From Hoeflea marina (lineage in GTDB: Bacteria; Pseudomonadota; Alphaproteobacteria; Rhizobiales; Rhizobiaceae), in the NCBI RefSeq assembly GCF_003182275.1, contig NZ_QGTR01000002.1, positions 724,237 through 788,236 of the forward strand: 64,000 bases of DNA, written 5' to 3'. Of this stretch, positions 24,070 to 63,541 are shown one piece after another (the stretch's first letter is position 1; each line of letters begins with the position of its first letter). A program made the translations under genes and the position numbers. The notes beneath the pieces were generated by a model, which worked only from the letters and a program-made list of their open reading frames with translations, made no database searches and was not told the DNA's origin.

Positions 24070-24167
24070 CCCGGCCCCGGCGGGCGGCCGGGCCGCCCGC
24101 CGGGTTGAAAATGACCAGCCGATGCCGTCGGCGGGATTGCGCAAGGCGGCCGCCTTGCCTATTCATG

Positions 24168-24366
24168 GATGCGATGGTTCCGCCGAGCCCAAGGCAAGGC
24201 GGATGAAAAAGGGAACACGGTGAGGTCGACCCGATGAGGGACCGAAACCGTGGCTGCCCCCGCAACTGTGAGCAATGAGCGACATCCGGACGACCACTGG
24301 CCGAGGCCGGGAAGGTGGATGAAGCGACGATCTGCAAGCCAGGAGACCTGCCATCGAACGCCGGCG
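24168..24366 (+). promoter_or_regulatory. Cobalamin (B12) riboswitch
   Basis: The classical landmarks occur in order: GGTTCC near 24174 pairing with GGGAAC near 24210, the ACGGTG turn, CCCCCGCAACTGTGAGC (24255-24272), CCACTGGCCGAGGCCGGGAAGG (split across 24294-24315), and the B12 box AGCCAGGAGACCTGCC at 24337-24352. When adenosylcobalamin binds, expression of the downstream transporter is normally shut off. A hairpin CCACAC/GTGTGG just before the ribosome site could be the expression platform. Confidence 0.95.
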
Positions 24367-24424
24367 CGTCACGCGCCACAACCCGTCACGAAACCACACG
24401 GTGGGTGTGGAAAGGAAGAAAATC

Positions 24425-25108
24425 ATGCATATCGAACCCGGCGTCGTTGATGGCGCCAAGATCGTCCTGAGTTACGCGACCGCCGCCGCCTCGCTGGGCC
24501 TGGTCGGCAAGATGGCCGTCGACACCGTGCGCGAGCATGGCAGCATTGCCGCCGCCGCGCTTCGCTCGGTCGCCACGACCGCACTCGTCTTCACCTTTTT
24601 CGAAGTCTTCCCGCATGAAGCGGTGGGCGTCTCCGAGGTGCACCTGATTCTCGGCTCGACGCTGTTCCTGGTTTTCGGAGCGGGTCCGGCCGCCATCGGC
24701 CTCGTGCTCGGCCTGCTGCTGCAGGGCGTGTTCTTCGCGCCGTTCGACCTGCCGCAATACGGCATGAACATCACCACGCTGATCGTGCCGCTGTTTGCCA
24801 TGGCGGCGCTGGCCAAGCGGATCATCCCGGCCCGCACAGCCTACAAGGATGTGAGCTACATGCAGGCGCTGACCCTTTCGGTGACCTTCCAGGGCGGCAT
24901 TGTCGCCTGGGTGGCGTTCTGGGTTGTCTATGGCCACGGCTTCGGCGCGGAGAACCTCGCTTCGGTCGCCACATTCGCCGCCGCCTACATGACGGTTGTC
25001 GTCGTCGAGCCGCTGATCGATCTCGGCGTGCTGGCAATCGCCAAGAATCTGCACGGCCTGGGCGGCGCCACGCTGTTCCAGAACCGTCTCTATCACGCCA
25101 ACGCCTGA
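24425..25108 (+). CDS. CbiM-like ECF transporter permease under B12 riboswitch
   Basis: A 227-residue membrane protein with about seven spans. It starts MHIEPGVV, the Met-His N-terminus that CbiM/NikM proteins use for metal binding, and contains GVSEVHLILGSTLFLVFGAG and FAPFDLPQYGMNITTL, which fit the CbiM family. CbiM recognises Co2+ (or Ni2+) for uptake. No cbiN, cbiQ or cbiO follows; the next element is a terminator. It is therefore a stand-alone S-component-like protein in this window. Control by the cobalamin riboswitch 60 bases upstream supports a cobalt role. Confidence 0.85.
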   Translation: MHIEPGVVDGAKIVLSYATAAASLGLVGKMAVDTVREHGSIAAAALRSVATTALVFTFFEVFPHEAVGVSEVHLILGSTLFLVFGAGPAAIGLVLGLLLQGVFFAPFDLPQYGMNITTLIVPLFAMAALAKRIIPARTAYKDVSYMQALTLSVTFQGGIVAWVAFWVVYGHGFGAENLASVATFAAAYMTVVVVEPLIDLGVLAIAKNLHGLGGATLFQNRLYHANA

Positions 25109-55570: not shown

Positions 55571-55647
55571 CGGAGTGTAGCGCAGCCTGGTAGCGCACGT
55601 CGTTCGGGACGACGGGGTCGGAGGTTCGAATCCTCTCACTCCGACCA
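55571..55647 (+). tRNA. tRNA-Pro (anticodon CGG)
   Basis: A complete 77-base cloverleaf: acceptor CGGAGTG with CACTCCG, D-arm GCGCAGCCTGGTAGCGC, anticodon stem CGTCG/CGACG with loop TTCGGGA (anticodon CGG), T-arm GGAGG-TTCGAAT-CCTCT, and an encoded CCA end. It reads CCG codons. It lies just before a lower-GC islet and may have served as an integration site. Confidence 0.97.
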
Positions 55648-60888: not shown

Positions 60889-62592
60889 ATGTCGACATTC
60901 ATTCAACGAGTGGCCGCCGCGGCCGCGCTTCTGACGCTTGGCGCGGGCATTGCGCATGCCGCCGAGACGGCGCAGCCGTCCGGACCCGGAGCCGCTGGCG
61001 ACTGCACCGGGCTTCAGGGGCTTTCCATTCCCCGGCAACTCATCGGACTGCCGACATCCGGCGGCGAGGTTGCCAGCGCCGAGACTGTCGAGGCCAGCGG
61101 CGAGGGCGCTGCGGCGGTTCCCCGGCACTGCCTGGTCTCAGGGCTGATCCACCCGGTCGATCCGGATGCACCCGACATCCGGTTCGGCCTCGCGCTGCCG
61201 GCGGACTGGAACCGCAAGGCCCTGATGCTGGGCGGCGGCGGCTTCGACGGGTCGGTCCCCAAGCTGACCGGTAACGTGCCCGCTGGCCCGGCCGACAAGC
61301 CGCTGCCGCTGGCCCGCGGCTATGCAGTGTTCGGCAGCGACTCCGGGCACCAGGCCAACGAACTCGGCTCGCAGGATGGCTCCTTTGCTCTCAACCAGGA
61401 AGCGGCGCGCAATTTCGGCGGCGACGCGCTCAAGAAGACGCGCGATGCCGCAGTCTATCTCATCGAGCAGCACTACCGTGCCGACACGATCGACCAGGCC
61501 TATTTCGCCGGCGGATCGACCGGCGGGCGCGAGGCGCTGGCGGCCATCACCCGCTGGCCCGACGACTGGGACGGCGCCATCGCCTGGTACCCGGCGTGGA
61601 ACGATGTTGCAGCCCTGCTCGGCGGGCACCGGGCCAACCGGGCGCTGGCCCAGCCCGGCGCCTATCCCGATACGCCGCAGCGTAAGCTGATCTTCGATGC
61701 CGCCATGGCTGCCTGCGACGCGCTGGACGGCGTGGCCGACGGGCTCATCAGCAACCAGACCAGGTGCAATGCGACCTTCGATCCCCGGACGGCCCGGTTC
61801 GAGGGCAGGCCGGTGCTCTGCGCCGGCGATGAAGCGCCCGAGGCGGTCTGTCTGTCCGAGGCGCAGGTGACGGCGCTGGAAGTCATGAACACGCAGACCC
61901 GGTTCGATTTCCCGCTCGCCAGCGGCGAGACCCAGTATCCTGGCTACAATGTCTGGGGATCCGATCTCGGCATCACGTCGCGCGAGGCGGCAGTGCAGCC
62001 GATCGTCACCTTCCTCGCCCTCGGCACGACCCCGCCGGTTCTGCCGATGGCCCGCACCACGCCCTATATCAGCCTGCTGCTCGACCAGTGGATCAAGTAT
62101 TCGGTGACCGCCGATGCCGACTTCGATTCGCTGTCGCTCGATCCGGAAAGCCCCGGCGCCTGGGCGATGCGGATCAGCGAACTGAGCACCCTCCTCGACA
62201 CGGCAGTCGATCTCGACCGCTTCGCCGCCAACGGCGGCAAGCTCCTGCTCGCCCACGGCCTGTCGGACGTGCTCGTCAGCACAAGGGCCACGCAGCAATA
62301 TTATCTCAGGCTGCAGAGCCGCATGATGCCGGAGACCGTCGACGACTTCGCCCGATACTACGAGGTGCCTGGCTATGGCCACGCGGTCAGTTCCGACTTC
62401 AACGCCGCATGGGATTCGCTGACGGCGCTGGAGAAATGGGTCGAGGAGAAGGAGGCCCCCGAAGATCAGGTGGTCACCGACACCGTCGGTGTGCCCGGCC
62501 GCACGCGGCCGCTGTGCGACTATCCCGGTTGGCCGCGCTATGCGGGGACCGGCGACGTCGATGACGCAGCATCCTTCGAATGCGTCAACTGA
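60889..62592 (+). CDS. Tannase/feruloyl esterase family exported hydrolase
   Basis: A 567-residue protein with a signal peptide (to about residue 24, GIAHAAE) and the tannase-family alpha/beta-hydrolase fold. The nucleophile elbow is AYFAGGSTGGREALAA (catalytic Ser in GGSTGG, about residue 211). Acid and His positions are suggested by LLLAHGLSDVLVS (Asp) and VPGYGHAVSS (His), and several cysteines fit the family's disulfides. Members cleave ester bonds in gallate or ferulate compounds or small diesters. GGGAGAGAAC precedes the ATG. It stands alone, followed by the anti-SD RNA. Confidence 0.9.
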   Translation: MSTFIQRVAAAAALLTLGAGIAHAAETAQPSGPGAAGDCTGLQGLSIPRQLIGLPTSGGEVASAETVEASGEGAAAVPRHCLVSGLIHPVDPDAPDIRFGLALPADWNRKALMLGGGGFDGSVPKLTGNVPAGPADKPLPLARGYAVFGSDSGHQANELGSQDGSFALNQEAARNFGGDALKKTRDAAVYLIEQHYRADTIDQAYFAGGSTGGREALAAITRWPDDWDGAIAWYPAWNDVAALLGGHRANRALAQPGAYPDTPQRKLIFDAAMAACDALDGVADGLISNQTRCNATFDPRTARFEGRPVLCAGDEAPEAVCLSEAQVTALEVMNTQTRFDFPLASGETQYPGYNVWGSDLGITSREAAVQPIVTFLALGTTPPVLPMARTTPYISLLLDQWIKYSVTADADFDSLSLDPESPGAWAMRISELSTLLDTAVDLDRFAANGGKLLLAHGLSDVLVSTRATQQYYLRLQSRMMPETVDDFARYYEVPGYGHAVSSDFNAAWDSLTALEKWVEEKEAPEDQVVTDTVGVPGRTRPLCDYPGWPRYAGTGDVDDAASFECVN

Positions 62593-62828
62593 CAGGCGGG
62601 TCGGTGGCTTCCTTCCGGTCGACGGCGACCTGATCGCCGTCGCCCCTCCGGGGCCTGGGCCGGCGCCGTTGCGGACTATTTCCGGCGCAGCATGGCTTTC
62701 TGCATCGGAAGCGGGCGCATTGCCCGCGAATGCGGCGGCCATTGCCCGCAAATTGGGCTAGCTATGCGTTTTTGGAATAGCTGCACTGCAACATGAACTC
62801 TGTTCCAATTTCGCAGATGCAGTATGTT

Positions 62829-62995
62829 GTCCTTATCGAAGTGATGCACCTCCTCCCGCAAAGCTTCGATGATCAGACGGCCTTATCCTCCTCCCGAGGT
62901 TGTCTGTAGGAATGGCGGCACTCCTCCTCCCAGCCGCTGTTCGGTTCTTCCGGAAAAAGCCTGCCGCACCTCCTCCCGCGGCGGGCTTTTTCTTT
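62829..62995 (+). ncRNA. Cuckoo-type small RNA with four anti-Shine-Dalgarno hairpins
   Basis: Four consecutive hairpins each expose CCTCCTCCC in the loop. HP1 spans 62835-62870 (stem ATCGAAG/CTTCGAT). HP2 spans 62874-62906 (nine pairs including two G-U). HP3 spans 62911-62941 (nine pairs with G-U). HP4 spans 62954-62991 (14 pairs, one G-U) and ends in CTTTTTCTTT, doubling as an intrinsic terminator. The loop motif is complementary to ribosome-binding sites (GGAGG). This matches the alphaproteobacterial cuckoo/CcsR/alpha-r14 type of RNAs, which act on translation or mimic the anti-SD end of 16S rRNA. It could be one transcript or several tandem copies. ORFs through it are shadows. Confidence 0.85.
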
Positions 62996-63541
62996 GGAAC
63001 CGGGAGCGGGGCCATCAGGCCGGCCGCGGCGCCGCTCCGTCGCATCGCCCCTCCATCCCGCGCGATGTCTTCCTCCCCGCCACAGCAGCAATGCATGCCC
63101 AAACCGCGCAGCGTCTCGGGATCACGGATGCATGCTGGAAAGAAGAAAGCCCGGTGGGTGGATCTGATTTCACGCACCGTGCCGCAAGGCGCCGCGGCAC
63201 GGCCTCCAGACCCGTTTGGCCGTTCCTCGACCTTCCCCGCTGTGATCGGTGGTCGGGCGGCATGCCGAACTGTGGTGATTGCGTGTCCGGCAATCCCCAG
63301 ATCGGACGAGTTGATCCTGGCGTTCATTGCGGGGATTAGGAGCATCGGTGAAATCCCGCCGTCTGCCTTGCGAAGACAAGAGCAGACGTCCCAGACGGAT
63401 CGGAATGCAACGGTATGTGGTTTGGACGAGAAGCGCGTCACCATCCTGGCTTGACCAGAACATGGCTTGCACCGGCCGTGGTTGTAGCGGCCATCAGCAC
63501 TGCGATGTCCGAATGCTGACGACCGGCACGAGGAGCCCGAT
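62996..63541. other. Intergenic region with no convincing gene
   Basis: 546 bases between the small RNA and the polysaccharide pyruvyl transferase start. Overlapping ORFs in several frames (for example 62833-63582 minus and 62900-63454 plus) share no family features, are Arg/Pro-rich and lack ribosome sites. The right end should carry the promoter for the next gene. Confidence 0.4.

Follow-up and report, generated by a model that had tools for sequence, protein, structure and literature searches.

The presence of several loops carrying one and the same sequence complementary to ribosome-binding sites raises the question of whether the underlying locus encodes an independent riboregulator, to which family such RNA should be assigned, and under which activator and on which targets it might operate. 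Here, we addressed this question for a locus at positions 62829-62995 of a 64,000-nucleotide stretch of Hoeflea marina DNA (the whole stretch is referred to below as the window). It is highly probable that this locus represents a free-standing, trans-acting small RNA (sRNA) of about 160 nt in the four-hairpin (SmelA099) form of the ar14/cuckoo RNAs, which would silence mRNAs at their ribosome sites under an activator of the VtlR/LsrB kind. The four-hairpin gene looks real but largely expected, since root-nodule bacteria and related groups are already known to have the small-RNA family of which it is a new copy.

Hairpin array and family assignment

Folding of 62829-62995 yields four hairpins, in each of which the whole motif CCTCCTCCC is left unpaired, just as the initial annotation had described them from the letters alone; successive motifs start 38, 36 and 46 nt apart (Table 1). 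The minimum free energy of this segment comes to -73.8 kcal/mol vs a shuffle mean of -46.8 (sd 3.7; z -7.3), and none of 200 shuffles turned out to be as stable. The T-run following hairpin 4 gives it the appearance of a terminator, as had also been supposed. The form of this hairpin is common to 16 of 17 aligned sequences, with three loop bases missing in the remaining one (L088). A simple consensus scanner found no terminator on the + strand at the sRNA locus because it admits loops of 3-8 bases and the loop of hairpin 4 has 10; on the - strand, it did list a terminator-like site coinciding with this hairpin.

Table 1. Features of the sRNA locus and its upstream region, in window coordinates
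Feature	Position	Strand	Characteristics
Putative VtlR/LsrB-like box	62775..62787	+	GAAT-N3-TG-N3-T; one departure from consensus, 6/7 bases match
20-mer	62777..62796	+	recurs with 1 mismatch before a 57-aa ORF elsewhere in own genome
Putative -10 element GTATGT	62822..62827	+	TA at 62823-62824 invariant in 17 aligned upstream regions
Hairpin 1	62833..62872	+	motif CCTCCTCCC at 62849-62857; fold
Predicted sRNA, four-hairpin ar14/cuckoo type (SmelA099-like)	62834..62994	+	~160 nt; Rfam ar14, fold
Hairpin 2	62874..62906	+	motif at 62887-62895; fold; arms covary
Hairpin 3	62910..62942	+	motif at 62923-62931; fold; arms covary
Hairpin 4, putative intrinsic terminator	62952..62993	+	loop motif at 62969-62977, then T-run

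Since a shorter pattern of two 7-mer motifs was not above control (9 real vs 14 control matches) and single CCTCC is scarcer in the window than in its shuffles (128 vs a mean of 182), the evidence lies in the array and its pairing and not in the motif alone. A row of three 9-base motifs was matched three times in the own genome, by two overlapping hits in the window and one at the L002 locus, with none for the reversed control; it was encountered in 218 of 297 family genomes, control columns being zero in the rows listed.

The Rfam model RF02344 (ar14) matches 62868-62993 at 100.8 bits (cut-off 58.8; model positions 1-123 of 123). Hairpins 2-4 cover the whole of it, and hairpin 1, which lies outside this three-hairpin model, is found in all 16 aligned loci. 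The window RNA displays the ar14 features of CCUCCUCCC in hairpin loops and a T-run after the last hairpin, as well as four modules whose stems vary but whose loops are identical, a trait of the RFM-SmelA099/cuckoo class. SmelA075 and SmelA099 were described as having three and four hairpins, respectively, with CCUCCUCCC loops and variable stems, and a single family with varying module number was suggested for them (Reinkensmeier et al. 2011, PMC3927594); in a deep-sequencing list of sRNAs, SmelA099 appears with a length of 160 nt (PMC2873474). Alignment of SmelA099, taken from the pSymA sequence, with the window RNA revealed 133 identical bases among 158 aligned, matching ends and four hairpins, and the borders given in Table 1 for the predicted sRNA follow from alignment to the listed 160-nt form. 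SmelA099 (smrA6) of Sinorhizobium meliloti resembles the window RNA in its four motifs, their similar spacing and the terminator hairpin coming last, while it sits on plasmid pSymA and the window copy on a contig of 1,026,206 bases.

Judged by sequence, the locus is a new copy of the known ar14/cuckoo family and not a new kind of RNA. This bears out the earlier assignment to the cuckoo/CcsR type, but not the notion that four loops together with a motif in the terminator are something special: a motif in the terminator loop already belongs to the Rfam ar14 consensus, and four-hairpin SmelA099 has been in print since 2011. The initial interpretation as a whole is thus partly supported. We know of no study of a four-seed anti-Shine-Dalgarno RNA in the source genus, for which a well-preserved representative is now at hand.

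Among other relatives, NfeR1/ar14 shares the CCUCCUCCC motifs and has three hairpins in contrast to four in the window RNA, and CcsR1-4/CIN1 of Rhodobacter sphaeroides are likewise anti-Shine-Dalgarno-type (cuckoo-type) RNAs. AbcR1/AbcR2 (ar15) are reported to be alike in action, with anti-Shine-Dalgarno loops and transporter mRNAs as targets, but constitute a different family, and no ar15 Rfam match is present in the window. Two further arrays occur in the own genome. One of them (L002:1354-1629; G000:C1:965769-966044) is a second ar14 RNA with three hairpins, its first motif located 26 nt after a DUF1127 gene; the other (L035:1480-1680; G000:C2, near 337954) is a two-hairpin cuckoo-like RNA with no Rfam match over cut-off and with a similar TGCAATGCAGCATAA element upstream.

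Pairing among homologous loci

For comparison, 21 loci of 600 bases were taken for alignment, 19 of them with four motifs. Three (L089, L091 and L092) were omitted on account of a different type of first hairpin, and two (L090 and L101) as having three motifs by the pattern used; the resulting alignment comprises the window and 16 four-motif loci from relatives (17 sequences). RNAalifold kept 33 pairs in it, 16 with changes on both sides. Over the same alignment, 84.2% of cells pair in the window's own 50 pairs, and 27 of these 50 are changed on both sides; neither the degree of pairing nor the number of two-sided pairs was matched in any of 500 shuffles, a test in which related sequences can exceed shuffles by themselves. 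Slid structures brought only 34.5-45.3% of cells into pairing, the tested structure being favoured over them as derived from one of the aligned sequences. The stems are therefore kept paired in homologous loci, which is the check that had been named in advance.

Hairpin 2 was aligned poorly by MAFFT (67.6% of cells paired), and therefore an arm test independent of alignment was added. All 68 hairpins from the 17 loci fold with at least 8 pairs, 66 of them with the motif left entirely open. Out of 272 exchanges of right arms between loci for each hairpin, 266 weakened hairpin 2 and 244 weakened hairpin 3; the corresponding numbers for hairpins 1 and 4 (216 and 134 of 272) are lower because their arms vary little, and nearly invariant hairpin 4 says little on pairing. 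A protein-coding reading of 62869-63339 was rejected by inference, since conservation follows pairing and the frame is not kept, being broken by the motif spacings and by length changes in homologues.

It might also be assumed that the hairpins are part of the tannase gene lying upstream, as its 3′ UTR or terminator, and do not form an independent sRNA. The tannase ORF (PF07519) is on the same strand and ends at 62592; this is, however, about 240 nt away, the sRNA has its own conserved promoter-like region, and the homologues examined adjoin other genes, which makes such an origin extremely unlikely.

Upstream box and small proteins

The region preceding this presumably free-standing sRNA is aligned with few gaps among the 17 loci and contains the putative -10 element, while the consensus scanner detected no sigma-70 promoter at the sRNA locus. 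The VtlR box is described by the consensus GCAT-N3-TG-N3-T (PMC7486931). Of 77 named loci of the four-hairpin type (80 named loci minus three with too little upstream sequence), 72 are preceded by a VtlR/LsrB box, in 70 cases at 61-62 nt, and the same box appeared in 36 of 3850 single-base shuffles. That of the window lies 61 nt upstream of TCGAAG in the first stem; the box of SmelA099, 59 nt upstream, differs from it at one base. Within 62601-62840, there is no exact VtlR form and no exact NfeR1 upstream motif TGCA-N6-GCAT, the absence of the latter distinguishing the window RNA from NfeR1.

Regulators of this kind are associated with several relatives. VtlR reportedly activates AbcR RNA and small proteins in Brucella and Agrobacterium, in Brucella together with DUF1127, and activation by VtlR/LsrB is reported for AbcR1. 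A LysR-type regulator reportedly also controls many sRNAs in Agrobacterium. LsrB of S. meliloti is described as activating the ar14 RNA NfeR1 (PMC10746234), and the CcsR operon of Rhodobacter is reported to have an RpoHI/RpoHII promoter, unlike the window copy (PMC10253847). Within the literature searched, outside which most subscription papers fell, no paper places the four-hairpin class under VtlR/LsrB. The conserved LysR-type box appears to be the sole and modest addition to what is known of this class, tying it by a testable link to VtlR/LsrB signalling, small DUF1127-type proteins and broad mRNA silencing.

The 20-mer overlapping the box has a third genomic place with three mismatches, and the reversed control pattern was matched once. 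Within the genus, the promoter element gave 29 matches distributed over 18 of 18 genomes, with zero for the control; out of 10 element loci examined (one being that of the window), 7 precede a 57-aa-type protein. When compared with DUF1127, a genus relative of this protein scored 10.3 bits (E 0.61, below cut-off) and that of the own genome gave no match; there was no NCBIfam match for the 57-aa proteins and no plasmid match for the own genome's one. These proteins near the shared promoter element may be considered DUF1127-like at best.

The DUF1127-cuckoo RNA link was published for the CIN1 locus (PMC10253847). In the genus, all 17 three-hairpin loci examined have a DUF1127-type ORF whose end lies 21-26 nt ahead of the first motif. 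By a short sequence pattern, such an ORF is found upstream in 35 of 72 named loci of the four-hairpin type (80 minus 8 with too little sequence), and 0 times in a downstream control for which the number of stretches is not given; a DUF1127 gene is also just upstream in all five annotated plasmid records viewed. By the same kind of pattern, the window copy has no DUF1127-type ORF within 1500 nt upstream, in which it differs from CcsR1-4 of Rhodobacter sphaeroides, going with the DUF1127 gene ccaF1, which lies directly upstream and is co-transcribed with them.

Possible targets and spread of the locus

By analogy with relatives, stress or nutrient limitation would probably induce expression of the window RNA through a LysR-type activator of the VtlR/LsrB kind. 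Stable stems would keep four CCUCCUCCC copies open in the loops, and each of these could base-pair with purine-rich ribosome-binding sites in many mRNAs, most of them probably encoding nutrient-uptake and metabolic proteins; pairing would block translation, and the four copies would serve as interchangeable seeds. Silencing of mRNAs seems most likely because NfeR1, with three motifs acting redundantly, is reported to silence mRNAs (PMC10746234). The multivalent regulator proposed in the initial annotation stands as far as this redundancy goes and no further.

Repeated identical sites would also suit an RNA sponge, the four loops titrating another regulatory RNA or RNA-binding protein and not mRNAs, and maturation of the related CcsR RNAs is reportedly assisted by the DUF1127 protein CcaF1 (PMC10253847). 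Against this, NfeR1 as a relative is reported to act on mRNAs, and the motif is complementary to ribosome-binding sites; a sponge function, for which no support emerged, is very unlikely. Passages from a paper on a Caulobacter sponge (PMC12559287) contain nothing bearing on the CCTCCTCCC motif.

As for individual targets of the mRNA silencing that we favour, NfeR1 pairs with ntrB, its best-studied target, and such pairing is not evident for the window RNA: the likely ntrB start here (start codon inferred) has no purine-rich ribosome site, and the duplex reaches -4.9 kcal/mol. An NfeR1-like ntrB feedback in the own genome is thereby not supported by the predicted pairing. Exact GGGAGGAGG-N3-10-ATG sites are nine in the genome, with one in the control. 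Three of them precede ORFs with Pfam domains (CBS, class-V aminotransferase and solute-binding protein), which weakly suggests three plausible candidate targets; the remaining six comprise five at the start of ORFs of 9-73 aa and one at that of a 418-aa ORF lacking a Pfam match. With only nine exact sites, effects would have to rest on partial matches. This would agree with a general damper of translation, in which initiation would fall broadly, and not at selected targets, through competition between the RNA and the 16S rRNA tail for every strong ribosome site, as would a seed that we take to be hardly more than the 16S anti-Shine-Dalgarno tail. NfeR1, however, is reported to have defined targets and a phenotype, and such a damper is rather unlikely.

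RF02344 was detected in 45 of 61 genomes (own and relatives) at E 0.001 and in 36 of 61 over cut-off. When the locus was used as a DNA query, 7 of 18 genus genomes gave a match, though diverged copies could be missed; the RNA body was covered in the own genome and G017 only, the other five genomes matching in short upstream or terminator pieces. The first-hairpin pattern revealed 84 stretches in named genomes, and the 80 listed of them carry the names Rhizobium, Agrobacterium, Sinorhizobium/Ensifer, Shinella, Pararhizobium, Ciceribacter, Ferranicluibacter, Aquamicrobium and "Rhizobiales bacterium". Four motifs are present in 68 of these 80 loci, three in 3, two in 7, five in 1 and one in 1, a share of four-motif loci that is not unbiased because the loci were preselected by first-hairpin sequence. 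The 16-kb surroundings of the window copy share no neighbour proteins with those of the G017 or G026 copies at E 1e-8, nor at 1e-3, and self-comparison worked.

The locus might also be a silent relic, i.e. a displaced paralogue with weakened promoter retained by chance. Such a reading would agree with the RNA body being matched in 2 of 18 genus genomes, with the absence of common neighbours, with the one-base departure of the box and with no DUF1127-type ORF being found upstream; the window copy could be silent, since Northern blots in S. meliloti are reported to have reliably shown only one of six NfeR1-type copies (PMC7143759). Nevertheless, the four stems and motifs, the -10 region and the terminator are intact, chance retention seems improbable, and we consider a relic unlikely.

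Of 72,556 plasmid records, 484 have a match, and 270 of these are predicted to be conjugative. The match extends over 80% or more of the query in 76 records; shorter ones may correspond to three-hairpin relatives or to promoter pieces. One may tentatively, and with considerable doubt, imagine the sRNA as part of a mobile cassette, in which a four-hairpin cuckoo RNA with its own VtlR/LsrB-type promoter, often accompanied by a DUF1127 gene, would have spread largely on conjugative rhizobial plasmids. In the recipient, this RNA would join the chromosomal VtlR/LsrB circuit, and DUF1127-like small proteins controlled by promoters of the same type would act on it in trans. Phage origin was discarded, with no match among 50,697 phage records.

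Tandem three-hairpin units were noticed in two genomes, with seven matches, six of them near-identical, at G216:C1:878340-879319 and five at G195:C1:3405235-3406130, mostly about 150 and 162 nt apart. Elsewhere in the window, a cobalamin riboswitch (RF00174, 119.4 bits) occupies 24158-24369 just before the same-strand ORF 24401-25108, and the only tRNA gene found, tRNA-Pro (CGG), is located at 55571-55647.
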